NCBI GenBank assembly: GCA_025055215.1
Contig: JANWYO010000164.1
Span: forward strand, 1-57,973
Direction: 5' to 3'
DNA: 57,973 nucleotides
From: Gemmataceae bacterium
GTDB taxonomy: Bacteria > Planctomycetota > Planctomycetia > Gemmatales > Gemmataceae
The translations under genes and the position numbers were made by a program. Shown here piece after piece: positions 3,001 to 51,911 of the stretch (the first letter of the stretch is position 1; every line of letters begins with the position of its first letter). The notes under the pieces are model-generated. The model was not told where the DNA came from and ran no database searches. It worked only from the letters and a program-made list of their open reading frames with translations.

Positions 3001-6000
3001 CCGGCGGTGACGTTGATGGTCGTCGCCGCCGCCATGCTGATCTGCCCGTTCCAGGTGTTGCTGCCGCTGATGTTTTCCAGCGCTCCGGAGGCCGTGAAGT
3101 TGCTGAACTGGCCCCAGCCGGAAATTTGGAGCATGTTTTGGACGGTGATGCCGCCTTGCAGCTGGAGGCTGGCACCGGGTACGACGGTGGTGATGTTGCT
3201 CGGGTCACCCAGGGCGTTGCTCTTGGCCAGCTTCAGCGAGCCGCCAATCACCCAGGTGCCGTTGCCGGATAAGTAGGTATTGGCAGCGGTGCCACCCATG
3301 ACCATTGTTCCGGCACCGGCCTTGGTGATACCGGCACTGGCGCTCAGGATGACGGCGTTGACGACCAGGTCATCCACCGGTCCGCCATTGTTCACGGTGA
3401 AGAAACGGTCGAGGGCGCCGAGCATCAGCCGGCCGCTGATGACGGGGCTGGGTGAGAAGACCGTGGTGTTCGGCGACGGGTTCACCGTGACCTCGCCGCC
3501 CAAGGTGATCGTGCCGGTACCCGTCCGGACGACGGCGCTGCTGATGGTGCCGATCCCCAGCCCGAGGCCGCCGATGACGTCGGAAGCGCTGTACGTCTCG
3601 AGGTCGAAGAGGCCGGAGCTGTTGACCGTCACCAGCAGGACATCGGCGATCTGATTCGGCGCCCGGAGTATTACCTGGTCGGCCATGCTGCCGCCGAGGC
3701 CGTCGCCGATCACCAGCTGGGTGGTGTGGCTGCCGCCGATGGCGTTGGCACCCGGGGCCTTCGACAGCAACAGGACGCCGGCTTGGACCGTAGTCGTGCC
3801 AGTGAAAGTGTTGGGCGTGGAGCCGGTCAGCAGGAGCGTCCCGCCACCCAAGCCTCCGGGCGACGCCGGCGCCAGCATGGTAAAACTGCCGGCGCCAGAG
3901 ATTTGCCCGGAGATGATCAAATCGATCGGCGCCGGGCTGTCCACGATGGCAAACGACCGGACCGCGCCCAGCAGGAGGTCGCCGGAGATCACCGCCGGCG
4001 GGGAACCGGCATGGGCCGTGGTCGTCATGTCCAGCGTGACGCTGTTGTTGAGCGTCAGGATGCCGCCGTTGCCATTGTTGGTGACCAGGGAGCTGCTGCT
4101 TTGTCCGATGCGCAGGCTGAGGACGTTGATCGTGTCGTTGTACACATCGTAGTCCAAAACCCCCGTGCTATTGACGGTGACAATGGCGGCATCGGCAATC
4201 TGGTTATTGCGGAAGAACTCCACTTCCGCAGGCAGGAGCAGGGTGTCGTCACCAATGATCAGGTTGCCCGGGATCGCGTTGGCAACGTCTTTGGTCAGTG
4301 CAAGAGTACCAGCGAGCACGGTGGTGGTGCCCACATAGGTGTTGGCTGAGATTCCTTGGAAGTTCAAGATGCCCGAGCCGACCTTGGTAAGGTTGCCCGT
4401 GCCGGTGATGGCGGCATTGATGTTGATCATGCCGGGATTGGGCATGTCGGCGCCGATGGTGACATTGCCCACCAGCGTGACGGTGCCGCTGAGGGTGTGG
4501 TTGCCGGTGAGTCCCCGGATGGCGCCGGTGCCGTTGATCCCCGCGCCGCTGACGGTCACCGGCTCGGGCAGGTTGAGATTTCCCTGAATTTGAAGGGCGG
4601 CCCCCGTCAGGATGACCGTGGGGGCCGTGCTCGTGCCCAAGGAGTTTGCCTGGGTCGCGGTCAGGGTGCCGCGACCGATGGTGATGGTGCCGGTCAGGTT
4701 CGTGTTGGCCCCAGCCAGCGTCAGATTGCCAAGCTCCTGTTTGAGCAGGTAGCCGCTGGTGACCATGGAACTGACCGTAAGATTGCCCCCCTCCTCAACC
4801 GAGACAAACGACTCCGACGTGCCGGAAGCGGGGAGGTTGAGGTTCTGGACCGAGAGTGTGTTGCTGCCGGCGCTGTTGAGGAGCGCTCCGCTGGCGATCG
4901 TCAGGGTTTGTCCAAAGCCGGCGATGTTCACGCCGGTGCCAGCCAGGAGCAGGCCGTTGATCGTCTGCGTCGAGGCGGTGGCACTGGCGCTCAGGCGGAC
5001 ATTGTGGGTCGGCCCGGCGCCGGTCAGCGTGGTGATGTACGACGAGTCGGACGGCCCCAAGGCACGGATGCCGTGGGTGCCATCGAGGGTGGCGAACTCG
5101 AGGCCGGTGCTGCCGACCACCGAGGCGAAGGGGAAGATCTGGTTGTTAAGGAGGGCAGCTGGCGAATTGATGAAGCGGATGCGGTTGCCCGGCCCAAGGC
5201 CGAGGTCACCGCCTTGGCCGATGAAGGCCACGCCCGCCTGCGCGTTGCGGACCAGGCCGCGAAGGACCAAGTCGGCGTTGGCCCCTGTGCCCTTCCGCGA
5301 CAGTATCCGGGCTGCGTTGCTGAGGGTGACAGTGCCCACCGTTTCCGACGAATTGACACTGTCGTTGCCCAGGAAATTCAACGAGCCACCGTTGAGGAGG
5401 ATCGGCGCGGTGTCGGGGAGGCGGTTGCCGTTGAAGGCCGCTGTGTTGTCGAGCGTCAGCTGGGCAGCCTGGCCAACGGTGATGGACGAAGGATTGTCCA
5501 AGCGTCCGTTGGCACCGGCCAGGCCGAGGCTGCCGGCGGTCACGGTCCAGGAACTGGTGCCGAAGGCGACGTCGGTCAGGACGAGGGCGCCTGGCCCATC
5601 CTTGGTGACGGGTGGATTGCTGGTGGTGTTGATGGTGCCGCCCAGGGTGAGGGTGCCGCTCTCGACGGCCAGGGCGATGGTAGCGGTGCCGAGAAGGTTG
5701 ATCGGTCCCGCGAAGGTATTGGCGCCGCCGATATTGCGGATGGCACCGGTGCCGCTGATGCCACTGCCATTCACCAAGAGGGTTTCCGAGAGCGAGTAGT
5801 TGATGTTGCCGTCGAACTGCAAGGCGGCACCGGCAGCGATGAAAACGCCGTTGCCGGGCGCTCCGAAGGCGCTCGGGTTTCGAGCGGTGACCACTCCCTG
5901 GTTCAAGGTGAGGGTGCCGCTGAAGTTGCTGGTGCCGGTGCCGGCCAAGACCATGTTGCCGGTACCCCACTTGATAATGCCGCCCGACCCGCTGATCGGG

Positions 6001-9000
6001 CCGTTGATCACCAGATCATCGACCGGAGCGCCATCGTTGACGGTGAACAAGCGATCCGCCCCGCCGAGCGACAGGTTGCCCGTGACGGTGACGGCCGGCG
6101 AGCGCGGCACGGTGCCGGCAGCGACGAAGACGGCGAAAGCACCGCCCAAGGTGATGAGCCCCGTGCCGGTGGTGATGTTGGCGCTGTAGGAGGGGCCGAG
6201 GAAAGTATTTACCGCTCCGACGACGTCGTTGAAGTTGTTGAGATCAAGGAGGCCCGAGGTATTGATGGTGATGACAACCCCATCGGCGATCTGATTGTTG
6301 GCCAGGAGGCGCACCACGTCGGCGTTGCCGCCGCCGAAGGTGTCGCCGATGACGAGCGCTCCGGCGATGGCGTTGACGCCGGCAGCCTTGTTCAGCAGCA
6401 GCGTGCCCTCATTGATGGTCGTGGCCCCGGTGTGCAGGTTTGGGTTCAGGCCGGAGAAGATCAGCGTGCCGGTGCCGATCTTGAGGATGCCGTTGGCGTT
6501 ACTGGCCGTGGCCCCGCTCAGGTCCAGCGTGGCACCGCCCTCGACACTGATCCAGACTGGGTTGGTGTTCAACGTGATGGTGCCAGCAAAAGAATTGCTG
6601 CCCGCCATTCCGACCAGGGCACCTATGCTGTTCAGGCCGGTGCCGGAGACGGTCAGCGGCTCGGTGGTGACGTTGACGCCCCCGGCGATGGCCAGAGTGG
6701 CCCCGCTGACGACCGTGGTCGCGCCACCCGTGCCGCCAAGCGCGAGATCGTTCTGAGCAACCAGAATGCCCTCGCCCACCGACGTAGCCCCGGTGAAGGT
6801 GTTCGTTCCGCTCAGGATCAAGGTGCCGGTGCCGAGCTTCGTCAGGCCGCCCGAGCCGCTGATGATGCCGCTCAGCGTCAGGTCTTGCCCGAAAAGGGGC
6901 ACATTGACCATGGAGGTCGAAGCGAGGCTGATCGGGCCGGTCAGTGTGCTGCTGCCGCCCAGCAGCTGCACGGCACCGGCGGTCCCGGCGACGCCGGTGC
7001 CGTTGAGGGTGATCGGCTCGGGAGCGAGGACTAGTCCAGGAGCAACTTGTAACGTCGCCCAGGGGCTGACGATCGTAGCGCCGGCAGTGCTTCCCAAGGC
7101 ATGGGCGCTCTGCACGAGGAGGAAGCCACCTTCGATGCGAGTGGTGCCGGTGTAGGTGCTGCTGCCGCTGAGGGTGAGGGTGCCCAGGCCGCTCTTCGTC
7201 AGGGCGTTGGCATTGGTGCTGACCACGGAGCTGGAGATGGTCAGGAGGGAATTGGAATCGACCTGAACGATCCCCTCGCTGCCGCCCAGATGCAGGGTGG
7301 CGAGGGAGACGGTGTTGTTGCGGCCACTGGCGACCAGCTGGCCGCTGGCGAGCGTCAGGCTGCCGGTGCCGCTGAGGGTGACGCCCTCGCCGACGATCAC
7401 CAGTGAGTTGACGACCTTAGAGCCGTTGAACACTTCGCTGGCGGTCAGGCGGACGTTGTCGGTGGGGCCGGCGGCGGCCAAACTGCCGACGTAGTTGGTG
7501 ACGGGGCGGATACTGGTGCCGGCGCCATTGTGCGTGGCCAAGTCGGCGCCATTGACGCTGGCGAAGGGGAGGATGCCACCGCTCAGCGCCGGGGCATTGG
7601 TGAAGACCACTTGATTGGTGGGGGTGCCGATGTTGGTCGTGCCGGCCTGGAAATCGACAGTTCCATTGCCCACCGAGCGGACCAGGCCGGAGCTGACGAG
7701 CTGCACCGTGCCTGCGTTGAGGCCGCTGACCGATTGGATGACCGATGCTCCCGTGCCCAGGACGATGGTACCGATGGTTTCCGCCGACAGCGCCCCCGGC
7801 GCCCCCAGGTACGAGAGGGTACCGCCCAAAAGCGTGATGGTGCCGGCGTCGCGGAGGCGGTTGGGATTGTTGAGGGTGGTGTTGTCGAGCAGCAGGGTAG
7901 CGCCGGCATTGACGGTATAGGCCGACGAATTGGCGATCTGACCATTGCCGCTGAGGATCAGCTGCGTGTTGACGCCGAGCGTTGTGGCCCCGGCGTAAGA
8001 GTTAGAACCCGTCAGGTGCAAGGTCCCGGCGTTGACCGCGACCGGGCCGGAGAAGGTGTTGGTACCGGTGGCCAGGAGCGTGCCAGAGCCGAACTTGGAA
8101 AGGCCAGCCTGGAAAAACGTTGGCCCGTTGACCATTCGGCTGGTGATGAGCAGATCGACAGCATTGCCGCTGTCGGCGACGACGAAATCGCGGGAGGCAT
8201 TAGACGCTGCGCTGGAAGGCAACAGGCCCAAGTCACCGCCGGAGATGCGGGCGGCGGGAGAGCCGTAAGTGGTCGAACCGCTCAACGTCACGCCGACCCC
8301 GCTCCCCAGGATGAGGGTGCCGCTGCCGAGGTCGACGGCGGCACTGAAACCCAGCCCGACCACCAGCCCCAGGCCGCCGATCTCGTCTTTGGCGTTGGCC
8401 AGGTCGAGGTAGCCGGCGCTGTTTATCGTCACGTTAATTCCATTGGCGATCTGGTCCGGGGCATTGAGCCGTACCACGTCCGAACCAGGGGCGCCGGCGT
8501 TGTCACCCACGGTGAGGGCCGCGGGAATGGCGGTAACCCCAGCCACCTTGTTTAAGATCAACGTTCCCTCGTTGACGGTCGTTGGGCCGTGGGTGTTGGG
8601 ATCGACACCGGAGAAGCGCATGGTGCCGCGACCGACTTGCGTCACGGCCAAGGCGCTGGTGTTGCTCTGCAACGCCCCGTTGATGTCGAGGCTGATTCCT
8701 GGAGTAACGCTCGGGTCGAACGGGGCAATGGTAAACGTCCGGGCGGCGCCCCCGAGAGAGAAGTTGCCGGTGATGACCGCGGTAGTGGCCGCCAGCGGCA
8801 GGGCGTTGACGAACAGGTTGCCGTTCAACGTCAACGTGCCGGTGCCGGTGTTGATGAGGGCGCTTTCGGTCGGCCCGAGGAGCAGCGTCAGGGCGCCGAC
8901 CAGGTCCGTAACGCCGCCGGGTGCCAAGTCGAGCAAGCCACTGGAGCCAACCGTAATCAAGGCGGTGTCGAGGATCTGGTTGCTGTTGACCAACCGGACG

Positions 9001-12000
9001 ATGTCCGCACCGCTGCCGCCGACGTTGTCGCCGACGATGAGCGGGCCGCTGATGGCATTGCCGGCCGTCTTGGCCAGGATCAGGGAACCCTCGGCGACCA
9101 CGGTGGTGCCGCTGTGGGTATTGGCGGCCGAGCCGGCGTACACCAGGGCACCGGTGCCGGTCTTCACCAGGGCCGGGGTGCCGCCGATGATGCCGCTGAC
9201 GGTGAGGGTGCCGACCGCGACGCGAACGATGCTGTCGGCAGCCAGGGTCAGATTGCCCGGGATGCCATTGGAGCCACCGAGGTTTTGCAGGGCGCCGGTG
9301 TCGTTCGGACCACGGCCGGCAATGGTCAGCGGCTCGGCCACCAGGCTGACGGTGCCGACGGCCAAGGCCCCCCCCGGAAACACGATGGTCCCGGTGGTGG
9401 TTGACCCAAGGGCCGTTGCATTTTCCACGTGAAGGATGCCGCGGGTGGCCAGGATGACGCCGGCTTGGCCGCTGTTGTCAGCGGCCAGGACCACGGTGCC
9501 GTCGCCGCCCTTGCGAATACTGCCGCCCCCAATCGGGCTGTTGATCGTCAACTTGGTCCCTCCGTGGGCCGAGATGAACGATTCCGACCCATCGGTCGAG
9601 GCATAGGTGATGGTGGCCGTGCCCGGAGTCAGAGCACTGGCGAAAAGGAGCGGGCTTTGATTGGCCGAGCCGAGCGCCCCCTGGAACGTCACGGTGTAGG
9701 GTCCGCCGGCTGAGCCGGTGACGGCGACGTTGCCCGCGCCGATGGTCGTCAGGGCTTCGAGGGCGGACTGGACGGCGGCGGCGGTGGCGTTGAACGCCAG
9801 CGCGCCGGTGGTGGCGCCATTGAAGCCGATTTGGAACGTGCCGCCGGTGGCCCCCGAAAGCGTGATCGTCCCCACTTCGTTGAAGTTGGGGAGGCTGAGT
9901 GTCATGGTGCCGATGGTGTTGTCGCCGCCGGTGTTCAGGATAGCGCCACTCGTCACGGTCAGCGTGTGCGTGCCGCTGATGTCGATGCCGTTGCCGCTCA
10001 AGAGGAGGCCGTTAATGGTGGTGGCGGTAGTGAGGGCATGGCTGGCGGAGACTTTGACGTTCTGGGTCGGCAGGGCGGTGGCGAGGTTGTTGGAGAAGAA
10101 CGGGCCGCTGGTCAAGGGGGCGATGCCATTGGCGCCGTACGTGGCGAATTCCAGGCCGGTCGCGTCGGTGGTGACGGTGGCGTAGGGAAGGATGCCATTA
10201 GTCAGGGTCGGCGCGGTGCCAAAGACGATCTGGTTGGTGGCGGAGCCGAGGTCGGCATTGACGCCGACGAAGCTGACGTTGCCGTTGAATCGGGCCAGGG
10301 CGGGGCTGGTGAAGCCGGTGCCGGGGCCGAGGTTGATCGACTGGATGATCGACGTGCCGGAGATGAGGGTGATGGTGCCGACGGTCTCGCTGGTGGAAGC
10401 GGCGGTATTGCCGATGGTCATCAACGTGCCGCCGCTGAGGTTGATGGGGGCGCTGTCGCCGATGCGGTTGGCACTGTTCGTGCTGACGTTATCAAGCACG
10501 AGGGCCGCGCCGGCGGCGATGTTGAAACCGGCCGAGCCGAGGGCGGAGCCGAAGCCGGTGAAGGTAAGGGTGCCGGCGTTGATGTTCGTGAGGCCGGTGT
10601 AGCTGTTGACGCCGTTCAGCTGCAAGGTGCCGGTGCCGGCCTTGGTCAGGGCGAGGTTGGTGGTAGCGATCGGCCCGAAAGTGGTCAGGCCGGCGTTGTT
10701 GATGGTGAAGGTGGGGGCTGCAGTACCGAAGGTCATGGTGCCGGCGAAGGTTAGGTCGAAGGTACCAGCGGTGTTGAAGCCGGTGGCGGCCAGCACTTGG
10801 CCGGTGATGGTCCGGTTGCCGCCGTCGGCGATGAGCGTACCGACGCCGGAGACCCCCAAGTTGCCGGGGATGGCGCTGTTGCTGCCGATGAGGAGGGTTC
10901 CCGCCCCCAACGTGGTGACGCCGGTGTAGGAGTTGTTCCCCGACAGCCGCATGCCGCCGGCCCCGGCCTTGGTGAAGGCGCCCGTGCCGACAATGTTCGC
11001 CGAGATGTCCAGGTCGATCAGATTACCGGCATCGTTGACGGTAAAGGTTCGCGCCGCCCCGCCCAGCGACATCGCCCCGCTGATCGACGCTGGCATGGTG
11101 TGGGTCGTCGTCTGGACGTTGGCGTCAAGGTTGACCGTGATGTTGCCGTTGAGGGTCAACGTTCCGGTGCCCGTGGCCAGGCTCGCCGACGACTGGGTGC
11201 CCAGGTTCATGTTGATGGCCCCGACGACGTTGCTGAAGCCGAAGAAATCAAGGAAACCAGAGCTGTTGATGGTGATGGTGACGAAGTTCGCGATTTGGTC
11301 ATTGGCCAGGAGGCGGACGACGTCGGCTTGGTAGCCGCCGTAACCGTCGCCGATGATCAGTGTGCTGGGGATCGCGATCGTGGGGAAGGTCTGGTCCTTC
11401 ATCAGGAGCAGGGTTCCCTGATTGATCGTCGTGGTTCCGGTATAGGTGTTGGAACCCATGCCGGAAAAGATCAGGGTGCCTGTGCCAAACTTGGTGATAC
11501 CGCCCGCCCCGGTGATGACGCCGGAAATCTCCACGTCGCCAGCCCCTGTGACCAGAGGGGTGATGGCCACCGGCGTGAGGCTGCCACCGCCCGTCTCGAT
11601 ACGCCCCGCCAGGATGAGCGTCGTGCCGGGGACCGTGGAGGCGAAGGTGGTGGTGAAGCCGGAAGGCGGCGACAGGAAAAGGTTCAGGTTGATGATGTTG
11701 GTGCCGGTCGGGTTGGTGGCGATGATGCCGCCGACTCCGAGCACGATGGCATTGCCGCTAATGTCGTAGCCGGAGCCGGAGACGGTGATGGAATTGACCA
11801 TCAGGCCGGCGAGGTTGTTGATGTTCACCAGGTTGGTGGTGACGCTGGGGAACACGAGGTCGGCGCTACCGGTCGGCAACAGACCGCCGGCCCAGTTGCC
11901 CGGGTCGGACCATAAATTGGTCGTTCCCTGCCCGGTCCAGACGTGGACGGCGGGTGCCAGCCGATCCTCCAGCCGTTCGATCTCAGGCCGCCATCGACGC

Positions 12001-31233: not shown

Positions 31234-31680
31234 TTAGTGGCAGCCGCAGCTGGTGACGCAGGTGTTGCAGCAGCGGGGCGCGCCACAGGCATTGAAGAAA
31301 GCCTGGAGCCGTTCCCGCAGCGTCGGCCGGCAGCAGCAACCACAGCTGCAATCGCAGCTCGGCTGGCACGTCTGCACGCAGCAGGTCGGCTGGCACGTCT
31401 GGACGCAGCAAGGCGTGCAGGACGTGTGGCAGCAGCTGCTGGTGTTGCAGCAACGGGGGGCGCCGCAGGCGTTCATGAACGCCTGGAGCCGTTCCCGCAG
31501 CGTCGGCCGGCAGCAACAACCGCTGTCGCAACAGCTGGCGCCGCAGCTTGCGCCACAGCTTGAGCCCGTGGCCACCACCGGAGCGGCGGCCGGGGCCGGG
31601 GCCGGGGCCGTTGCCGGAGCAGGAATCGGCTCCGCACCCGCCAGCCAAGCCGTGGACATCAGCAAGAAAGCAGCATTCAC
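31234..31680 (-). CDS. Secreted Cys-rich protein with internal duplication (paralogous design)
   Basis: The 148-residue product starts at GTG 31680, seven bases after GGAGG. It has a leader (MNAAFLLMSTAWLAGAEP), a Pro/Ala linker, then about 31 Cys in ~110 residues. The unit GCCCRPTLRERLQAFMNACGAPRCCNT appears twice (second copy with FFNAC), separated by a short tandem CCVQTCQPT/CCVQTCQPS. The layout (signal, Cys block, short amphipathic L..RL.A helix, Cys block) parallels the protein at 28906-29427 without close identity. It may be a matrix or metal-binding protein; function unknown. Confidence 0.75.
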   Translation of the reverse strand: MNAAFLLMSTAWLAGAEPIPAPATAPAPAPAAAPVVATGSSCGASCGASCCDSGCCCRPTLRERLQAFMNACGAPRCCNTSSCCHTSCTPCCVQTCQPTCCVQTCQPSCDCSCGCCCRPTLRERLQAFFNACGAPRCCNTCVTSCGCH

Positions 31681-32027
31681 GATCTAACCTCCGTAAGAGA
31701 TTCACGTCGGCTCAAGGGCCGCGGCCAAACAACCGTCGGCTTCCCCACGGTGGGTCGCCCGTCAGTTGGTGCCGTGCTGCGAATCAACCCGAACGCCGTG
31801 ACTTACCTCAAGCACCGTCGTGTGATTCGCTGCTGTTTGGAATCGGCATCCCCAGACCCGGCCTTTAAGCGCTTTTTCCGGGACGCCTCCGCTGCCCCGC
31901 CGACCGCGCTCCGGGCAAAGCGCGAACTTGAAAGATTTCGCCCAACTCCACCAGTCGCCGTGGCGGGCTCCCTCGCACCGCAGGTATAATGCTCCGCCAA
32001 CGGAACGATGACCGGGAAGGAGTCCTC
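31681..32027. other. Divergent gap between Cys-rich gene and recJ
   Basis: This 347-bp stretch has no recognisable gene. It contains the TATAAT box just upstream of recJ (listed separately) and should also hold the promoter of the minus-strand Cys-rich gene, for which no box was identified. Confidence 0.5.
31985..31990 (+). promoter_or_regulatory. Candidate -10 box for the recJ operon
   Basis: A perfect TATAAT ends 37 bp before the recJ GTG. Its last two bases overlap an in-frame ATG at 31989. If this is the -10 element, transcription starts near 31997 and that ATG cannot be the start codon, which supports GTG 32028. The -35 region (around 31962) is GC-rich and unconvincing. Confidence 0.4.
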
Positions 32028-33851
32028 GTGGCAACCCCTCGCAAGCGCTGGCTCCTCTTCACCCACGAGCGGATGGCCGTCGAACGACTGGCGGCCCAGA
32101 TGCGCACCTCTCCAGTGGTTGCCCAACTTCTCCTCAACCGCGGCCTGAGTGAGCCCACCGCCGCTCGCCGCTTCCTGGAAGCGCCGCTCACCGGTCTCCA
32201 TCCCCCGGCCCTTCTCCCGGGTGTCTCCGAGGCCGCCCGCCGCCTGCTGGCGGCGGTGCGGCAAGGCCGCCGCATCGTCGTCTACGGCGACTACGACGTC
32301 GATGGCATCACCGGCACCGCCATCCTCTACAAAGCTCTCCACCTCCTGGGCGGCCAAGTCGATTTCTACCTCCCGAACCGGCTGGAGGAGGGATACGGCC
32401 TGAACATCGACGCCTTGCGGCGGATCGCCGTCGCCGGCGCCCGGACGGTCGTCACCGTCGATTGCGGCATCACGAGCGTCGCCGAGGCGGACGAGGCGCG
32501 CCGCCTGGGATTGGAACTCATCATCACCGACCATCACGAGCCGCGGGAGGAGTTGCCGCCCGCCGACGTCCTCGTCCACCCATGCCTGCCGGGGAGCGGC
32601 TATCCGTTCGGTGAGTTATCGGGGTCCGGCGTGGCCCTGAAAGTGGCCTGGGCCTTGTGCCAGGAGGCGTGCGGCGCCGCGAAAGTCACCCCCCGCCTCC
32701 GCAATTTCCTCCTCGAGGCCGTTACCCTGGCAGCCCTCGGTCTGGTGGCCGACGTCGTCCCGCTGTACGACGAAAACCGCATCCTCGTCCGCCACGGCTT
32801 GCAACGGCTTTGGCCGGCCCCTTCCTTGGGCTTGCACGCGCTCATCCAAGAGGCCGGGCTGGCCAACCTGCCAACCATCCGCGCCGAAGACGTCGGCTTC
32901 AAGCTGGCCCCCCGCCTCAATGCCGCCGGTCGGCTCGGGTGTGCTCGCCTGGTTGTCGAACTCCTGACCACCGCCTCGGCCCAGCGTGCCGCCGACCTGG
33001 CTCGCTTCCTCGAAGGTCAAAACCAGCAACGCCAACAGCTCGAACGACGCATCTTCGCGGAAATCCGCCAGCAACTTGGCGATGACCTTGATGGCCGCCC
33101 CGCCCTGGTCCTGGCCGACGAACGCTGGCACCCCGGAATCATTGGCATCGTCGCGGGCCGACTCGTCGAACTCTACGGTCGCCCCGTGCTGTTGATCGCC
33201 CTGGCCCCCGACCGCGACGGCTTGGGCCGAATCGCCCGGGGCTCCGGGCGCTCGATTGCAGGCTTTCCCCTGCACGAAGCGCTGGCGACATGCCGCCACC
33301 ACCTGTTGAGTTTCGGCGGCCATGCCGCGGCGGCCGGCTTCAGCCTCCGGGCGGAAGCCGTCGATGCCTTCCGGGAGCGTTTCTGCGCCGTGGCCGCCGA
33401 GTACTTCCCCGACGGCCCGCCCACGCCCCCCCTCGTCCTGGACGCCGAAATCCCCCTCAGCGCCCTGACCCCCGGTCTGCTCCGCGACCTCGACCGCCTG
33501 GAGCCGTTTGGCCCGGCCAATCGCCGACCGGTGTTTCTCGCGGGTGGGCTTCGGGTTGTGGGCTCGCCCCGCTGCTTGGGTCCGGGAGAACGGCACCTGA
33601 GCTTTCGCGTCCAGCAAGGCGGCACCTCCCTGCGGGCCATCGCCTTCGGCATGGCCGACCGGCTTGAGGAACTCCTGTCGGCCCAAGGCCAGGTCTGCCT
33701 CGCCTTCCGGCCGCGCCTCAACGAGTGGCAGGGAATTCGCACAATCGAGCTGGAAGTGGTCGATTTCCAAGCCGGTCCCCGGGTCCGGCTGGCGACCGCC
33801 GCGCCCCCGGCTGCGATGCCGCCCGCGGCGGCGGGCGGCCGTGTCTTATGA
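32028..33851 (+). CDS. recJ: Single-stranded-DNA-specific exonuclease RecJ
   Basis: RecJ degrades single-stranded DNA 5' to 3' in recombination and mismatch repair. The 607-residue protein shows the DHH-family motifs GDYDVDGITGTAIL, VTVDCGIT, ITDHHEPREELPPADVLVHP and SGSGVALKVAWAL, followed by the DHHA1 part with LVLADERWHPGIIGIVAGRL and SFGGHAAAAGFSL, and a C-terminal OB-like domain. The GTG at 32028 follows AAGGAG by five bases; an in-frame ATG 39 bp upstream overlaps a likely -10 box. Its stop codon overlaps the next ATG (ATGA), so downstream genes are probably translationally coupled. Confidence 0.95.
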   Translation: MATPRKRWLLFTHERMAVERLAAQMRTSPVVAQLLLNRGLSEPTAARRFLEAPLTGLHPPALLPGVSEAARRLLAAVRQGRRIVVYGDYDVDGITGTAILYKALHLLGGQVDFYLPNRLEEGYGLNIDALRRIAVAGARTVVTVDCGITSVAEADEARRLGLELIITDHHEPREELPPADVLVHPCLPGSGYPFGELSGSGVALKVAWALCQEACGAAKVTPRLRNFLLEAVTLAALGLVADVVPLYDENRILVRHGLQRLWPAPSLGLHALIQEAGLANLPTIRAEDVGFKLAPRLNAAGRLGCARLVVELLTTASAQRAADLARFLEGQNQQRQQLERRIFAEIRQQLGDDLDGRPALVLADERWHPGIIGIVAGRLVELYGRPVLLIALAPDRDGLGRIARGSGRSIAGFPLHEALATCRHHLLSFGGHAAAAGFSLRAEAVDAFRERFCAVAAEYFPDGPPTPPLVLDAEIPLSALTPGLLRDLDRLEPFGPANRRPVFLAGGLRVVGSPRCLGPGERHLSFRVQQGGTSLRAIAFGMADRLEELLSAQGQVCLAFRPRLNEWQGIRTIELEVVDFQAGPRVRLATAAPPAAMPPAAAGGRVL

Positions 33852-34867
33852 CGGCAAACCTACCCCCTGAGGTTCCCCAGACCCCAGACCCACGGTCCGG
33901 CCTTCGCCAGGCCGCCACGGGCGCGTGGCGAAAGACGCTACCCGTGGTCGTCAGTGCGGTCTTACTGGCCTGGGTCTTTACAAGGGTGCCGCCCCAGGAA
34001 CTTGCCTCGGCATTGCACGCCGTGCCCGGCCCGTGGCTGTTGGCCTGCACCGCCGGCCTGGTCCTGACCTTGTACTTCTGGGACGCCGTCTGCCTTCGCT
34101 GGTTATTTTCGCAGCCGAACACGCTCCTGCCACTCAGGCCGGTGTTGTTCGCGCGGGGCTTATCGTACCTTGCGGGCGCTATCAACTACGAGATTGGACA
34201 AGGCTTGCTCGCTTGGCGACTGGCAGAGGTGCGCCACATCCCGGTGTTGGCGGCCTTAGGACGCTGTTTCCTTCTCGGGCTGCACGACTTGGCTGTCCTG
34301 CTCGCCTTCGGTCTGCTGGGTGCGCTTACCAGCAAACACGCGCAGGCCGGTTCGCTCCGCTGGGTCTGCGGGGGCGCTCTCGGAGTGCTGATTGGCCTGG
34401 GGCTGTTGGCAAGGCTTGCTCCCACGGCTTGGCCGCAGCATCGGCAACCTCCCCGCTGGTGGGCGTGCCTAAACTGGTGGGGCGTGGGTCGGTCTCTCCG
34501 GTTGTGCTTGCTGCGCGGGGGATATTACCTGATCATCCTGCTTTACGCCCTGGTAAGCCTGCCACTTTGCGGCGTTTGCGTAGATTATAGAGTAGTCTTC
34601 AGTGTCATCCCGCTCGTCATGGTCGCGGACGGTCTGCCCATTAGCGTTTCTGGTCTGGGCACGCGGGAAACGGCGCTGTTGTGGCTGTTGCCGGACGTGC
34701 CGGCGAACCGCCTGGTGGCGTTCAGCCTCCTGTGGTCCGTGGGCCTGATGGTCGGCCGCGCCACCCTCGGCTTGGTGCATCTGTGGCTGGGGTACTTGCT
34801 GAGGGGGCGACTGCACGCCAACAATCGAACGAGCAACGGGCGGGGAGGAGCGAAGCACGGACCATGA
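33848..34867 (+). CDS. LPG-synthase-type (UPF0104) integral membrane protein
   Basis: The 339-residue protein has about seven to eight hydrophobic segments and the C-terminal family signature ADGLPISVSGLGTRETALLWLL, characteristic of the lysylphosphatidylglycerol synthase transmembrane family (PF03706). It lacks the soluble aminoacyltransferase domain of full MprF, so it resembles the stand-alone members, some of which act as flippases or lipid-linked-product transporters. Its ATG overlaps the recJ stop (ATGA) and its own TGA overlaps the next ATG. In context it could move the product of the downstream enzymes across the membrane, but that is inference. Confidence 0.85.
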   Translation: MTANLPPEVPQTPDPRSGLRQAATGAWRKTLPVVVSAVLLAWVFTRVPPQELASALHAVPGPWLLACTAGLVLTLYFWDAVCLRWLFSQPNTLLPLRPVLFARGLSYLAGAINYEIGQGLLAWRLAEVRHIPVLAALGRCFLLGLHDLAVLLAFGLLGALTSKHAQAGSLRWVCGGALGVLIGLGLLARLAPTAWPQHRQPPRWWACLNWWGVGRSLRLCLLRGGYYLIILLYALVSLPLCGVCVDYRVVFSVIPLVMVADGLPISVSGLGTRETALLWLLPDVPANRLVAFSLLWSVGLMVGRATLGLVHLWLGYLLRGRLHANNRTSNGRGGAKHGP

Positions 34868-35877
34868 CGACCTTGGTCACAGGGGCAACGGGTTTTGTCG
34901 GTAGTCATGTCGTCGAGGAGTTGCTCGGCCTTGGCGAGCCGGTCCGTGCCCTGGTCCGTGATCCGAACAAGGCAGATCGGTGGCGCCAACGCGGGGTCGA
35001 GGTGGTCGTCGCCGACGTCACCGATCCGCAGGGCCTGCGGGCGGCCGTCCGCGACGTCGGGGTGATTCACCACTGCGCTGCCGCCGTCGGCCATTACACC
35101 AAACAGCAGTTCTATGCCGTCAACTTGGAAGGGTTCCGCAACCTCCTAGAGGCCGTTCGCCACGCCGGTCAGCCCCGGGTGGTCTTCCTCAGCTCGATCA
35201 ACGTACTGGGGACCCGCAACCTGGACCCGGCCACGGAAGAAACCCCCTGTCGTCGATCGAACGATCCGGCGGCTGACGTCAAGATCGAGGCCGAGCAACT
35301 CGCCTTGGAATACAGCCAGCGTCACGGCCTGGATCTGGTCATTCTGCGGCCCGGTTTTATCTACGGCCCCGGCGATCAGCGGAACCTGCCCAAGCTGGTG
35401 GAGGCGATTCGCCGAGGAACGTTCCGGTACATCGGCAGTCGGAACCATGTGGTGCCGATCGTTCACGTCAGCGACGTGGTGCAGGCGATGGTCCGGGCCG
35501 CCCGTGTGGCGGCGGCCCGGGGCCGAATTTACAACATCACCGACGGCTCAAGGACCACGATTGGGGAACTGGCCGATCACATCGCGGGCTTGCTCGGATG
35601 CCCTCCGCCACGGAAAACGATCGGCTACGCCCTCCCCTTTGCTGCCTGTGTCATGTTTGAGGTGTTGACCCGCCTGAAGCTGTATCGCGGCGTTTCGCCG
35701 ATCCAACGCCCCGCCCTCCGGTTCCTCGGCACCTCCCGGTATGTGGACATTCGCCGGGCCAGGACAGACCTGGGCTACACCCCGCTCGTCGGCTATCGGG
35801 AAGGAATCGCGGCCACGCTGCGCTGGCTCGAGGAGCAAGACCATGGCCGAACCGCTGTCGCCTCCCCGGTCGTGTGA
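34864..35877 (+). CDS. NAD-dependent epimerase/dehydratase-like SDR lacking the catalytic Tyr
   Basis: An extended short-chain dehydrogenase of 337 residues. The Rossmann motif TGATGFVGSH (6-15), VVADVTDP, and FLSSINVLG (Ser110/111 region) are normal, as is GRIYNITDGS. The active-site motif is altered. Where the family has YxxxK, the sequence reads PAADVKIEAE, with Ala136 in the Tyr position and Lys140 kept. Family relatives are expected to read PYADVK here. Loss of Tyr should abolish ordinary hydride chemistry, so the protein may bind NAD(P) for structure, regulation or an unusual reaction. Starts with ATGA overlap to the preceding gene; overlaps the next gene by 35 bp. Confidence 0.88.
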   Translation: MTTLVTGATGFVGSHVVEELLGLGEPVRALVRDPNKADRWRQRGVEVVVADVTDPQGLRAAVRDVGVIHHCAAAVGHYTKQQFYAVNLEGFRNLLEAVRHAGQPRVVFLSSINVLGTRNLDPATEETPCRRSNDPAADVKIEAEQLALEYSQRHGLDLVILRPGFIYGPGDQRNLPKLVEAIRRGTFRYIGSRNHVVPIVHVSDVVQAMVRAARVAAARGRIYNITDGSRTTIGELADHIAGLLGCPPPRKTIGYALPFAACVMFEVLTRLKLYRGVSPIQRPALRFLGTSRYVDIRRARTDLGYTPLVGYREGIAATLRWLEEQDHGRTAVASPVV

Positions 35878-36931
35878 CCGTCATCTCACCGAGCGCGTCG
35901 TCGAGGTGGTACGGCGGCACTGGAATGCCCCGCGCAAGGTGGAGCGCTACTCCCGACCTCCCAAGGAAAAGGTCGAGGAACTGGCCCGCGCTGCCTTGGA
36001 CACGATGCTGACACGCCAGTACCGCGTCGGCCCCCTGCCCCCGCCGGAGGTTTACGACCAACTCCTCCTGAAGGTCCGCAAGAAAGTCCGCAAGGGCCGA
36101 CCCATCCGCATCGTCCTCGGCTACGGGCCAATGAAAAATCAAAACGCCGTCCCTTACAGCCGCGCCGATTGGGCTGAGTTCTTCGCCCTGTGCCATCTGG
36201 TCAACTGGCACAACAAGGTGCAGGCGGTTTATCCTCCGGGGCTGGAAATCCGCATCATTTTCGACGATTCGACCATCCGCATGGCCAATCGCGGCGATCC
36301 GAAGCTGATGCGGTCGTACATGAACTCCGTGGCCGAGATGATTCAGGCCCTCGGCTTCGGTTCCATCTTCCTGCGAACCTTCCGCCAGTCCACGCTCGCC
36401 TGGGGAATGTACCTCGGGCTTTGGCAATTCGCCGATTGGATGGTACGGCGCTGGGAACGGGACCCGGCGAACAAGGCCCAACTGGAAAAGATGAACGAAT
36501 ACGCGCGGCGCAATGTGGTGGTGCCCCCGGGCCTGAGCGCCGAGGAACGCGAGAAATACATCCTCGAGGCCAGCCATCGCTATCGCGTATACTGGGAGGC
36601 TTTGCAGTGGAGTCTCTTCACCAAGGGAAACTTCCGCATCATCGCCATGTACCTCGACGGCTCTCAGCACCACATCCGCGAAACCTGTGCTCTCCACCTG
36701 ACTACCCTCGACAAGGGTCAAATCACCCAACCGTGGCAGGGGCAGGGGTGCCTGATGGATAACGGCCACGGCAAGTTGGAGCCTTTTGTCCTCACCGCCG
36801 GACGCCAGGCGTGCCATCGCCTGCAAACCGTCACGGGACTCAACCTGGTGCCCTTGCCCGGATTTGACAGCATTCAGATCGCCACGCGAATCCCGAGCGA
36901 GGGTCCGCCCCGCTCGCCAGGGCCGGAGTGA
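35843..36931 (+). CDS. Uncharacterised protein with resemblance to PvcA/DIT1 isocyanide synthases
   Basis: Product of 362 residues, soluble, no signal. Residues ~88-175 read IRIVLGYGPMKNQN (Lys98, Asn101), then RADWAEFFALCHL (Asp109, Glu112), QAVYPPGLEIRIIFDDS (Tyr130-Gly133, Asp141/142) and RSYMNSVAEMIQALG. The order and spacing match my memory of the isonitrile synthase core: FP.KS.N, D.AE..AL..L, IY.PGA...I.SDG and Y...L..M..LG. Near residue 320 TQPWQGQGCLMDNG could match the family PWHG...DG region. This is a pattern match by eye, not a search result. The ATG at 35843 has AGGAG 7 bases upstream and sits inside the end of the SDR gene, so coupling is tight. If right, it would make an isocyanide from an amino acid. 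Confidence 0.55.
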   Translation: MAEPLSPPRSCDRHLTERVVEVVRRHWNAPRKVERYSRPPKEKVEELARAALDTMLTRQYRVGPLPPPEVYDQLLLKVRKKVRKGRPIRIVLGYGPMKNQNAVPYSRADWAEFFALCHLVNWHNKVQAVYPPGLEIRIIFDDSTIRMANRGDPKLMRSYMNSVAEMIQALGFGSIFLRTFRQSTLAWGMYLGLWQFADWMVRRWERDPANKAQLEKMNEYARRNVVVPPGLSAEEREKYILEASHRYRVYWEALQWSLFTKGNFRIIAMYLDGSQHHIRETCALHLTTLDKGQITQPWQGQGCLMDNGHGKLEPFVLTAGRQACHRLQTVTGLNLVPLPGFDSIQIATRIPSEGPPRSPGPE

Positions 36932-37012
36932 AAGGTACGTTACAGCGGCACTCAAGAATCGGGAGCGCGTGCCGACGTTGCCGTCTTCCAGGGGCCGCTT
37001 CCCCGGACCATC

Positions 37013-38284
37013 ATGCGACGCCTGCGCATCCTGATGACTGAAGGTTCCAGCCTCTCTGCCCGGCAGACGCTCTACATGCTGGGCGCCGCACGCCACATCA
37101 TCGACGTCTGCGACCCGCACCCCTGGCGCTGTCTCGCCCGTTGGTCCCGGTTCGTGCGACGAGTCTACCGGTGCCCGCCCTTCGCCGACGATCCCGCCGG
37201 CTACCTTCGCTTCCTTCACGAGCGTCTGACCACCCACCGCTACGACGTCCTCTTGCCGGTCCACGATCAGGCGTACTTGCTGGCCCGCTGCCGCGAGCGA
37301 CTCGGTCGCCTCGCGGGCCTTGCCGTGCCTGAGTTTGCAGCGATCGTCCGGCTGCAAAGCAAGGCCGGCATGGTGCGGCTGTTCGACGAATTGGGATTGC
37401 CTCATCCGCCAACGCGGATCGTTCGGACAAGGTCCGAGGCGGAACAGGCAATCGAACTTCCCTGTTACCTCAAGCTGGCCCATGCCACTGCCGGAAGGGG
37501 TGTTTGGCGAGTCGGCAATCGGGCCGAGTTGGAGGCATGTCTGAGCCGGCTGGAGCGGAACGGCGTATTGGATGGTCGGACGGAACTCCTGGTGCAACAG
37601 CCGGCGGAGGGGACGCTGTCGGTGGTGCAATCGGTGTTTCACCAGGGGCGGTTATTGGCCGCGCATTGTTACCAGGCCCGCGCCCAAGGGGTTGGCGGGA
37701 GTGCCTGGGCGCGGGTCAGCGTCGATCATCCCGAAGTTCGGGAGCAGGTGGCGCGGCTTGGGAGGCACCTGCGGTGGCATGGGGCCTTGATGCTCGATTA
37801 CCTGTACGATCCTCACCGCGGCCCCAGCTACATCGACGCCAATCCGCGCCTCGGCGAAACGTTTAACGCCTTTGCCAGTGGCCTGAATCTGTGCGAGCTG
37901 CTGCTTCGCGTCTCGATGGGCGAGCCGGTCGAAGCGGCCCCGCCCTCGAAGCATGGTGTGCGGACTCACAGCCTGATGATGAGCCTGCTGGGCCATGTCC
38001 AGGCGGGGGGCCGACAAGGCCGCCTGCTGGCTGAAGCTTGCCAGGCCCTGATCCGATGGGGCCTGTACGCGGATAGCCAAGATGAATTGACGCGTCCCTG
38101 GGATGATTGGCCCAGCGCGATACCCGCGGGGGCGGTGGTCCTGGCTCTGCTCGCCGCCCCGCGCTGGGCGGGGCGGCGGCTGGTGGCCGACACCGTCGCC
38201 AGCTACGCGCTCACCGAAGCTGCCGCCCGAATCATCCAGCAGACGCCCTGCGAGGAACTCTTGGCCTTGGCTGCGCCTGGTTGA
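37013..38284 (+). CDS. ATP-grasp family ligase-like protein
   Basis: A 423-residue soluble protein with an ATP-grasp layout. An N-terminal pre-ATP domain (ILMTEGSSLSARQTLYMLG, YDVLLPVHDQAYLLA) leads to SKAGMVRLFDELGLPHPPT (~116-134), CYLKLAHATAGRGVWRV with Lys154, ELLVQQPAEGTLSVVQSV (191-208) and the metal-binding end PSYIDANPRLGETFN (271-285, Asn277). Related proteins join a carboxylate to an amine or alcohol via an acyl phosphate. The C-terminal ~130 residues are unassigned. It begins 81 bp after the isocyanide-synthase-like gene, same strand, and could ligate that product to an amino acid. No strong ribosome-binding site precedes the ATG. Confidence 0.8.
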   Translation: MRRLRILMTEGSSLSARQTLYMLGAARHIIDVCDPHPWRCLARWSRFVRRVYRCPPFADDPAGYLRFLHERLTTHRYDVLLPVHDQAYLLARCRERLGRLAGLAVPEFAAIVRLQSKAGMVRLFDELGLPHPPTRIVRTRSEAEQAIELPCYLKLAHATAGRGVWRVGNRAELEACLSRLERNGVLDGRTELLVQQPAEGTLSVVQSVFHQGRLLAAHCYQARAQGVGGSAWARVSVDHPEVREQVARLGRHLRWHGALMLDYLYDPHRGPSYIDANPRLGETFNAFASGLNLCELLLRVSMGEPVEAAPPSKHGVRTHSLMMSLLGHVQAGGRQGRLLAEACQALIRWGLYADSQDELTRPWDDWPSAIPAGAVVLALLAAPRWAGRRLVADTVASYALTEAAARIIQQTPCEELLALAAPG

Positions 38285-38304: not shown

Positions 38305-39789
38305 TCAGAGGACTGGAGACAAGAGACGGCAGGCATTCTCGATAAGCTGGCCGGAAAATGGCCGGTGGGCGTAGACCTCCCGGTCAAGCTGGATGGAGAC
38401 CTCCAAGTCGCGGCGAAATGCCTCCTCCAGTTCGGCGACGACCGCCGGAGAATAAAAAAGGCAGTTGACCTCGAAATTGAGGTGCATGCTGCGGTTATCC
38501 AGGTTGGCCGTGCCGACGGTAGCCCAGTCGTCATCAACGAGCATGACTTTGGCGTGCATCATGCCCCGGGTGTACTGGTAGACCTTGATCCCGGCGTCCA
38601 TGACGTCGCCCCAATAAAATCGGGCGGCATAGTAGGGGATCCATTTGTCGGGGTGGAACAGGCCGAGGAAGCGGACATCGACGCCCAAGTAACCGGCCAG
38701 GCGCAGGGCGTTCAGGAGACCAGCGTCGGGCACGAAGTAAGGTGAGGCGATCCACAGGCGCTTCTTGGCCCGGAGGATCGCGGCGAAGAAGACCTCGCGG
38801 ATCGACTTGAGTGCCTGGTCAGGGCCGGACTGGATGACCTGCACGGCGCAATCCCCCGCGGCGCTCAGGGTCGGGAAATAACGCCCCCCCTGCACCTGCT
38901 CCTGGGCAGCGAAATCCCAATCCTCGACAAAGATTCGCTGCAAGCAGGCCACGGCTGGCCCTTCGATTTTCAGGTGGGTGTCGCGCCAGTAGCCGTAATA
39001 CGGCACCAATCCCAGGTATTCGTCGCCGATGTTCAAGCCCCCGGTAAAGGCGACGCGACCATCGACGACCAGGATTTTCCGATGGTTGCGGAGGTTGACC
39101 TGGATGCGGCGGCGCAGGGGATTCAGCGGCAGAAAGGCAGCACATCGACCGCCGGCCTTGACCAATGGCTCCAGCGCCGCCCGACTCAGCCTTCGCGATC
39201 CCATCGCGTCGTACAGCAGCCGAACCTCTACCCCCGCCCGCGCCTTGCGCGCCAGGGTGTCGAGGAAGCGACGGCCCGTGCCATCGGGCTGCACGATGAA
39301 GTATTCCAGATGGATGTGGTCCCGGGCCGATTCGATGGCCTCCAGTTTGGCATCAAACGCCGGCTTGCTGTCGTGATAAAACTCGATCCGATTACCCGAA
39401 CTGATCGGGAAGGCGTCGAAGCGCCGGGCCAGGCCAGCGAAGTCTGCCCATGCTGGCTTCAGTTCGTCGGCCGTTTCTGCCAAAGCCAGCGCACTCCGAC
39501 GATGACCCGGGTAACGTTGTCGGAAGGTCACCACATGGCGTTGCTTACGCGTCAATGGCCGGTGCACCGTCTGATACCCCAGGAGGAGAAACAACAACGG
39601 CCCCAGGAACGGAATCGGTGACACCAGAATGATCACCAGGCACCACGCCGTGGCCGACATCGAGTCGCGCTTGATCGTCAGCACCCAGAGCAGCGTCAGG
39701 ACGGTTGACACGGTCGCCAGGATGGCGACCGCTCCGGTGATTTCCTGAAGGAGTTCCCTTAACTCGGACCCGGACCACATGGCGGGCAT
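38305..39789 (-). CDS. Phospholipase D / cardiolipin synthase-like protein
   Basis: The product (494 residues from 39789, 491 from 39780) begins with two transmembrane helices (AVAILATVSTVLTLLWVLTI; WCLVIILVSPIPFLGPLLFLLLGY). It then has two phospholipase-D domains with intact HKD motifs: NHRKILVVDGRVAFTGGLN and MHAKVMLVDDDWATVGTANLDNRS. This is the organisation of bacterial cardiolipin synthases, which join two phosphatidylglycerols. The frame extends to 39894, but that extension looks non-coding. Neither candidate ATG has a good ribosome-binding site. It ends 20 bp from the ATP-grasp gene, tail to tail. A phosphatidylserine decarboxylase lies later in the window but not in the same unit. 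Confidence 0.9.
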   Translation of the reverse strand: MPAMWSGSELRELLQEITGAVAILATVSTVLTLLWVLTIKRDSMSATAWCLVIILVSPIPFLGPLLFLLLGYQTVHRPLTRKQRHVVTFRQRYPGHRRSALALAETADELKPAWADFAGLARRFDAFPISSGNRIEFYHDSKPAFDAKLEAIESARDHIHLEYFIVQPDGTGRRFLDTLARKARAGVEVRLLYDAMGSRRLSRAALEPLVKAGGRCAAFLPLNPLRRRIQVNLRNHRKILVVDGRVAFTGGLNIGDEYLGLVPYYGYWRDTHLKIEGPAVACLQRIFVEDWDFAAQEQVQGGRYFPTLSAAGDCAVQVIQSGPDQALKSIREVFFAAILRAKKRLWIASPYFVPDAGLLNALRLAGYLGVDVRFLGLFHPDKWIPYYAARFYWGDVMDAGIKVYQYTRGMMHAKVMLVDDDWATVGTANLDNRSMHLNFEVNCLFYSPAVVAELEEAFRRDLEVSIQLDREVYAHRPFSGQLIENACRLLSPVL

Positions 39790-39880
39790 TGCCTGAGAGG
39801 ATGGGGCCTCCGTGTCATGGTGGCAGGCGCGGAAGTCGCGGACAAGGGTGTTTGCCGCCAGGCAGCGGGAAGATCGGCCA

Positions 39881-39906
39881 GCGGGCGGGGCCATCGCCCC
39901 GCCCGC
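39881..39906. terminator. GC hairpin between glycosyltransferase and cardiolipin synthase-like genes
   Basis: An 11-bp perfect stem with a CATC loop lies about 95 bp after the stop of the GT4 gene (minus strand) and before the PLD gene. There is no T-tract after it, so it would be at best a Rho-type or partial terminator separating the export cluster from the lipid gene. Confidence 0.35.
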
Positions 39907-50438: not shown

Positions 50439-51911
50439 ATGACTCAACATCCAACCGCCATGGTGGTCTTGGCCAGTGAACAACTTTGGCCAAACATCCA
50501 CGGCCTGGTTCATTGGTCGAGTCATCTCCAACATTTGTGCATTTATCACACCACCGATGAGCGCTCCTACAAACCCGCTCAGCAGCTGGCCCTGCTCTGC
50601 CGGGCGATGTATGGCTCCCGGGTACAGGTGCATGTGCCGCCCGTGCCTGGGGGAATGCAACCGCTCGAAGTACACACCCAGATCCAGTGCTGGCGGCACC
50701 AACTGCCAGGTCAGCGCTGGCTCTTGAACGCGACCGGCGGGACCAAGCTGATGACCGCCGGGGTGCTGCGCTGCGTCGGCGAGCCAGATTGCCAGGTCGT
50801 CTACCGGGAGATCGCGGATCGTTGGTACGAACTGCACCGCGCCGACAATGGGCGCGACATTGTCACAAGCCCCATCGACGTGCCGGTGACGGCCACAGAC
50901 CGGATCCCGGTAAGCAGCCTGCTCTGCGCCCTGTGGAATGGCGCCGATCACCGCGTTGAATTCGGATCAAAACCTAATCGGCTGCCTGTCTTGGAGCTGA
51001 CACAGGCCTGGATCAAGCATCAGGGCAACTGGAGCATGGCGTTTTCCGATTGCGGGCTTCCCAACAATGAAGGCGTGGGTTTCCTTTTCGAGCGTTTCAT
51101 AGCTGCCGTCCTGCTCGAATTGGGCGTCAGCAACCTCGTGTGCAACGTGAAGCGCCTTGACAGCACGGGAACTCAAGTGCTCCAGGAAATCGACCTGGTG
51201 GCCAATTACAGTGGCCGGATTCGGATCGTGGATTGCAAACTGACGGACGGCCAAACAGGGAAAGCTAAAGTTCGTGGGGAGCCGATCACGTCCCAGATTC
51301 GCCAGGCAGCCCAAACCCGGCGTGAACTAGGTGCCGAACTACTCTTGCTGCGACCGAACTCGACCCTTAACGAGGCGGAGCGCAGCTTGGCACAGGCCTA
51401 CGGCCTTCAGGTTCTGGACCGTGACGACTGCAACAGCCTGTTCAGCGGCTTGCATCGTTTTCTGCGGGTTCAGGGTCCGCTGCCCGAAACTTTGCGGCAA
51501 GCGCAAGAGGCCCTGATTCAGGCAACGAAGGTTCCTGGGGCCAATCCGATGCAACCGCCGGCCGAGCAGAACAAAAAGCTTCGTAACGTCAGTGGGCAAT
51601 GGGCCGTCATCGATTTGGACGCGTACCGGCGAGACCTTAACCAAGACTGGGTAGCTTACCGGCTTAGTGACCTGGAAGTGGGCTTCAAGTGCGCCCGGCT
51701 GTCAGACATCTCCCGAGACCAGTGGCGCTGGTTGATCCAGGAGCAATTCCGATCATTTGGCCAAGTCAAGGACATAGCCCTAAGAAAGACTGGGTCGACC
51801 GGTCGGTTTATCCTCACGGTCCCAAACCATGCGAAGTTCTCCGCCCTGATTACTTACCTTGAGGCACGGTTACAAAAATCGCTATTGATCGTACAGCCTG
51901 TAACAAAATGA
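50439..51911 (+). CDS. Card1/Can2-like CARF-domain nuclease, orphan
   Basis: 490 residues. The N-terminal CARF domain has VVLASEQLWPNIHGL (9-23) and WLLNATGGTKLMTAGVL (94-110), matching the LVSEQ.IPN and NITGGTK.M motifs of Card1 that bind cyclic oligoadenylate. The C-terminal nuclease domain has GFLFERFIAAVLLELG (Glu218) and QEIDLVANYSGRIRIVDCKLTDG (Asp252, Asp265, Lys267), a PD-(D/E)XK site with DCK in place of the more common ECK. A C-terminal extension of ~110 residues (from ~380; AVIDLDAYRRDLNQDW...) is not part of Card1 as I recall it. In type III CRISPR immunity such proteins cut DNA and RNA when activated. No cas gene or CRISPR array lies within this window, so its signal source must be elsewhere or different. 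Confidence 0.85.
   Translation: MTQHPTAMVVLASEQLWPNIHGLVHWSSHLQHLCIYHTTDERSYKPAQQLALLCRAMYGSRVQVHVPPVPGGMQPLEVHTQIQCWRHQLPGQRWLLNATGGTKLMTAGVLRCVGEPDCQVVYREIADRWYELHRADNGRDIVTSPIDVPVTATDRIPVSSLLCALWNGADHRVEFGSKPNRLPVLELTQAWIKHQGNWSMAFSDCGLPNNEGVGFLFERFIAAVLLELGVSNLVCNVKRLDSTGTQVLQEIDLVANYSGRIRIVDCKLTDGQTGKAKVRGEPITSQIRQAAQTRRELGAELLLLRPNSTLNEAERSLAQAYGLQVLDRDDCNSLFSGLHRFLRVQGPLPETLRQAQEALIQATKVPGANPMQPPAEQNKKLRNVSGQWAVIDLDAYRRDLNQDWVAYRLSDLEVGFKCARLSDISRDQWRWLIQEQFRSFGQVKDIALRKTGSTGRFILTVPNHAKFSALITYLEARLQKSLLIVQPVTK

Follow-up and report, generated by a model that had tools for sequence, protein, structure and literature searches.

Few enzymes of the isonitrile type exist, and metal-binding and antimicrobial compounds are among their products. 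The closest known clusters belong to synthases of the PvcA/IsnA type (pvcABCD, isnAB, xan), enzymes that make an alpha-isocyano acid. Yeast Dit1, of the same Pfam family, works alongside a P450 in a fungal spore-wall pathway; one study reported that it does not act as an isocyanide synthase and that its product is most likely formyl tyrosine (PMC7345447), although a later preprint still classes it as one (PMC10153163).

The four-gene cluster described here resembles a small cluster of the isonitrile synthase (ICS) type, yet departs in several features from a PvcA/IsnA isonitrile synthase. Like the PvcA/IsnA clusters it is small, and its core protein scores above the cut-off of PF05141, is predicted to have their overall fold and keeps the core Lys, Asp, Glu, Asp, Tyr and Pro-Trp residues. 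In contrast to these systems, identity in the structural alignment is about 15%, three ICS motifs are changed, and no PvcB-like oxygenase was found, the partners being a short-chain dehydrogenase/reductase-fold (SDR) protein that lacks the catalytic Tyr, an ATP-grasp protein and an LPG_TM-like membrane protein. The original prediction knew of no described system with this gene set. A search of the available literature likewise found none, and it returned no relevant paper on isonitrile or isocyanide synthases in connection with planctomycetes or with ATP-grasp enzymes. We propose that the cluster is probably a rare operon for a specialized small-molecule pathway with an amine modification at its core, and we do not claim that its product is an isonitrile.

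Organization of the Gene Cluster

The window, which is the entire stretch of 57,973 nt that was analyzed (Gemmataceae bacterium contig JANWYO010000164.1), contains four open reading frames packed on the plus strand within positions 33848-38284. These and the two flanking genes are:

31989..33851, plus strand, recJ exonuclease (Pfam DHH, DHHA1 and RecJ_OB)
33848..34867, plus strand, polytopic LPG_synthase_TM-like membrane protein (339 aa)
34864..35877, plus strand, extended SDR-fold protein (337 aa)
35843..36931, plus strand, DIT1/PvcA (isonitrile synthase, ICS)-like enzyme, the core of the cluster (362 aa)
37013..38284, plus strand, ATP-grasp carboxylate ligase-like protein (423 aa)
38305..39894, minus strand, cardiolipin synthase (NCBIfam TIGR04265, 432.6 against a cut-off of 290)

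The coordinates and junctions proposed earlier match the open reading frames exactly. The recJ stop and the LPG_TM start overlap in an ATGA (4 bp, 33848-33851), the LPG_TM and SDR genes overlap in a second ATGA (34864-34867), the SDR and ICS-like genes overlap by 35 bp, and the ICS-like and ATP-grasp genes are separated by an 81-bp gap. Despite its 4-bp overlap recJ is a housekeeping gene outside the conserved unit, and it did not appear among the open reading frames adjoining the unit in L075 or L077, the two related loci discussed below. The cardiolipin synthase gene, convergent with the ATP-grasp gene, probably also lies outside the unit; it was not seen at L075 or L077.

In G+C content and third-position G+C the four genes are unremarkable compared to the rest of the window. 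Within the cluster region a consensus promoter search found none, which is weak evidence, and an Rfam search gave no match; nor was there any match of the cluster to anti-phage or phage families that would suggest a role in defence. A perfect 9-bp hairpin consisting of G+C only (33818-33839), which may stem from Gly/Ala codons only, sits at the end of recJ and just ahead of the cluster's first gene.

Conservation of the Neighborhood

The neighborhood proved to be conserved in distant planctomycetes (L075 and L077), so that a lack of conservation in relatives, which had been named as grounds for rejecting the original prediction, was not what we found. In L075 the SDR (7789-8820), ICS-like (8817-9941) and ATP-grasp (9938-11209) genes have the same order and strand as in the window, all on the plus strand with ATGA overlaps, and are preceded by AsnB-like, MMPL and FemAB/GNAT-like genes upstream of the SDR gene. 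In L077 all four gene families are adjacent in a rearranged form: the ATP-grasp (1102-2532) and LPG_TM (2421-3542) genes are on the minus strand and, divergently on the plus strand, the SDR gene (3585-4568) is followed by two ICS-like copies that are 62% alike and by a second, ordinary SDR gene. Identities to the window proteins for L075 and L077, respectively, are 59 and 54% (ICS-like), 62 and 49% (SDR) and 57 and 41% (ATP-grasp), and the LPG_TM protein of L077 is 38% identical.

In a fourth occurrence, G501/G466, the ICS-like gene stands by itself on its contig and the matching SDR gene is on another (C62 of G501, about 54-55% identity to the window SDR), where it adjoins a methyltransferase gene. 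No ATP-grasp or LPG_TM match was found in G501/G466 and the genes are split, indicating that the four-gene set is not obligatory. G466 had at first suggested a lack of conservation of the neighborhood, a reading that L075 and L077 overturned.

Distribution of the ICS-Like Gene

When 84,980 species genomes were scanned with a two-sequence alignment/pattern as the query, three ICS-like orthologs with 54-59% identity were identified: L075, L076 (genome G466, also G501) and L077. All three are from planctomycete metagenome-assembled genomes (MAGs), and the core gene is thus known from four genomes only, with contigs as the loci compared. Single-sequence scans with the ICS-like protein gave no match in genome, plasmid and viral collections, and neither did a scan of viral contigs with the two-sequence alignment. 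No match was present among 58 near relatives. Within the order the gene occurs in 2 of 102 genomes, the window genome and G466 (56% identity), and in the order to which L077 belongs a profile search matched one genome in 296, L077's own. Beyond the window's own protein, a search of 392 genomes of the phylum gave only weak matches, of which G333, where the site overlaps a methionine-aminopeptidase-like open reading frame, and the likewise weak G156 were set aside. The distribution is very rare and patchy, which fits a role in specialized metabolism.

More distant members of the superfamily were also encountered. The scan of 84,980 genomes also gave DIT1/PvcA-like proteins that carry the motif EADWAEFF, from MAGs of Patescibacteria, Neomarinimicrobiota and WWE3 (L078 196-1212; L079 5593-6594; L080 5224-6249), and no partner genes were recognized at these three loci. 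Among the weak matches of the phylum search was G101, a 12.3-Mb planctomycete genome whose isonitrile synthase looks genuine and is extended at the N terminus (L052 4790-8114); the synthase is followed by a TauD/PvcB-like oxygenase and then a UbiA-like prenyltransferase, in what looks like a canonical isonitrile cluster.

The ICS-Like Protein

The window protein matches Pfam DIT1_PvcA (PF05141) with 34.2 bits against a gathering cut-off of 26.4, and its relatives score 33.1, 28.9, 26.6 and 34.6; the match of the window protein spans profile positions 1-103 of 273, the N-terminal third. The NCBIfam PvcA equivalog model (NF045653) gave 22.7 bits against a cut-off of 600. An AlphaFold2 model, made from an 8-sequence alignment and with a mean pLDDT of 74.5 and weak stretches at 268-295, matches PIsnA (9dh4; Z 17.8, 268 residues, 3.8 Å) and PvcA (3e59; Z 17.5), whereas the best fold match outside PvcA and PIsnA has a Z of 7.9. 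Matches to tyrosyl-tRNA synthetase and cyclodipeptide synthase folds (Z about 7-8) were discounted, as they may reflect an arrangement common to these folds. By score and fold the protein belongs to the DIT1_PvcA superfamily, with a predicted PvcA-type fold over its full length that, beyond the N-terminal third, is based on the modeled structure.

We compared five family members to nine known or annotated ICS-type sequences. Residues P96, K98, D109, E112, P132-G133, D141, Y159, W251 and P297-W298 are invariant across both groups. In contrast, the His of the PWH motif, invariant in ICS, is Gln299 in all five family members, RLSIHP is replaced by YLDGxQHH, and the CSDG[R/H/Y] motif is replaced (DD); the profile alignment of the C-terminal part is less certain, as the local alignment covers the N-terminal part only. 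The replacement residues (Q299, LDGxQHH and DD) are constant within the family. The cluster offers a way to ask which residues divide isonitrile formation from formylation in the PvcA fold. A partner of the PvcB type, an Fe/2-oxoglutarate oxygenase, was not detected by tblastn with two TauD-type queries in the window, L063, L075, L077 and L085, contigs rather than whole genomes being covered, and no carrier protein was noticed at the ICS-like loci. The earlier suggestion of a possible isonitrile-forming enzyme is not supported as far as isonitrile formation itself is concerned: the protein shares its fold and some core residues with PvcA, but the PWH His is replaced and no PvcB-type partner was found.

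The SDR, Membrane and ATP-Grasp Proteins

The SDR protein scores strongly with PF01370 (145.7 bits). It shares its overall length, the nucleotide-binding motif TGxxGxxG (present as TGATGFVG) and the catalytic Lys (K140) with extended SDRs of the HpnA/OleD type but differs in the YxxxK motif, where A136 takes the place of the catalytic Tyr. The residues in this column are A, A, H and A, so that the Tyr is absent in the cluster SDRs of all four genomes, while 28 of the 29 other SDRs in the comparison have it. The Tyr-less SDR co-occurs with the ICS-like gene in each of the four genomes, including G501, where it is on a separate contig, and a profile of it found no further member at E<=1e-80 among the best five candidates from each of 384 phylum genomes.

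The membrane protein resembles the transmembrane region (PF03706, LPG_synthase_TM) of the MprF/LPG synthase flippase domain, but has no synthase domain; the window copy is below the Pfam cut-off (25.3 against 33.4 bits), and the ortholog in L077 (2421-3542, minus strand) is above it with 35.3 bits. None of the remaining 101 genomes of its order gave a clear homolog. Going by family resemblance, the protein is a candidate flippase or exporter of the pathway product. The loci with this ATP-grasp and a Rossmann protein (the window, L075, L077, G232 and G325) hold an LPG_TM or an MMPL gene, which would fit an export role.

The ATP-grasp protein has near full-length similarity to PRK06849/PRK12767-like proteins, with which it shares the ATP-binding Lys, the hinge and the acidic metal motif. 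It scores 80.6 bits with NCBIfam NF005315 (PRK06849-like), under the cut-off of that model, and 15.5-15.9 bits with the Pfam ATP-grasp models, below all gathering cut-offs; its relative in G325 passes CPSase_L_D2 (22.6 against 19.8). The ATP-binding K154, the hinge LVQQPAEG and the metal motif DANPR are kept and aligned in the homologs. In contrast to the PRK06849/PRK12767-like proteins, the cluster protein represents a distinct subfamily, found in polyketide synthase (PKS) loci and in ICS-like clusters. Relatives are 57% (L075), 51% (G232), 41% (L077) and 38% (G325) identical, and another, about 41-44% identical to the window protein, is located in a PKS locus on the megaplasmid of Streptantibioticus cattleyicolor (L101 996-16221). 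In the planctomycete G325 (L099 1457-10607; L100 639-11065) the gene occurs with a type I PKS, an AMP-binding protein that bears a carrier domain, GH3, MMPL and PanE, and in G232 with MMPL, PanE and a desaturase. The ATP-grasp gene also occurs without the other cluster genes. The subfamily is rare and could be a handle for finding planctomycete pathways.

Two observations on these loci can be added. GH3 proteins are amide-forming enzymes best known from plants, and the presence of one in a bacterial PKS locus (G325) seems unusual. The ATP-grasp homolog of G003 (L049 6554-9323) lacks the segment that binds ATP, which in the window protein covers roughly residues 136-203.

Proposed Pathway and Alternative Explanations

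A compact biosynthetic pathway is the likely function of the unit. The original prediction of a compact small-molecule pathway gains from the conserved neighborhood, the rare and patchy occurrence and the recurrence of the ATP-grasp subfamily in polyketide loci. We envisage that the ICS-like enzyme would bind an amino-acid-like substrate in its PvcA-type pocket and add to its amine a one-carbon unit, drawn, as PvcA does, from a sugar phosphate; the result would be an isonitrile or else an N-formyl group, as has been reported for yeast Dit1. With ATP, the ATP-grasp enzyme may then activate the carboxylate and join it to another amine. The Tyr-less SDR-fold protein may perform a non-canonical nucleotide-dependent step on the intermediate, and the LPG_TM-like protein might carry the product across the membrane; other loci have an MMPL transporter in its place.

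For the core step, isonitrile formation and N-formylation are two chemical options of nearly equal standing. A true isonitrile synthase cluster, in which an alpha-isocyano acid is made and then turned into an isocyano amide by the ATP-grasp enzyme, would agree with the PvcA fold (Z 17.5-17.8), the core residues common to both groups and the compact unit with a ligase and a membrane protein. Gln299 in place of the PWH His in five out of five proteins, the replaced SIHP and CSDG[R/H/Y] motifs, the NF045653 score (22.7 against 600) and the lack of a detected Fe/2-oxoglutarate oxygenase nearby argue against it, and we regard it as possible though doubtful. The altered C-terminal motifs are in line with a Dit1-like enzyme that forms an N-formyl group or another one-carbon amine modification, the product being a formylated amino-acid amide or similar. 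Dit1, likened here by family and reported function and not by sequence alignment, is also in PF05141 and was reported as a non-isocyanide synthase (PMC7345447), but is kept as an ICS in the later preprint (PMC10153163); we regard a Dit1-like role of the cluster enzyme as possible but rather doubtful. It is also possible, although we put this forward tentatively, that the family is a new class of PvcA-fold enzymes with Gln for His, which performs another amine chemistry free of an oxygenase, together with the Tyr-less SDR and the ATP-grasp protein, and makes a planctomycete metabolite of a class so far unknown.

A role in envelope or lipid modification, with the LPG_TM-like flippase, the ATP-grasp protein and the nearby cardiolipin synthase decorating a membrane lipid, is suggested by the LPG_synthase_TM resemblance, by MMPL lipid-type transporters adjoining the ATP-grasp gene at other loci and by the cardiolipin synthase gene next to it in the window and, divergently, in G003 (L049). 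As that gene was not seen at L075 or L077, no aminoacyl-PG synthase domain is present and the extreme rarity speaks against a core envelope role, we consider this improbable. That unrelated genes came to lie behind recJ by chance could be argued from the generally high gene density and from ATP-grasp genes found on their own; it is contradicted by the adjacency that recurs, with identities of 38-62%, in L075 and L077, and is very improbable. The small, conserved four-gene cluster has different partners and an altered active site and comes from a phylum that has been little explored; it offers a compact and testable target for new chemistry.

Other Features of the Window

Two further open reading frames of the window stood out. 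The one at 31234-31680 (minus strand) is Cys-rich, with repeated CC motifs and without a Pfam match. The protein encoded at 50439-51911 has a Card1-type CARF match just under the Pfam cut-off (24.1 against 24.6), and is possibly CRISPR-associated or defence-related.
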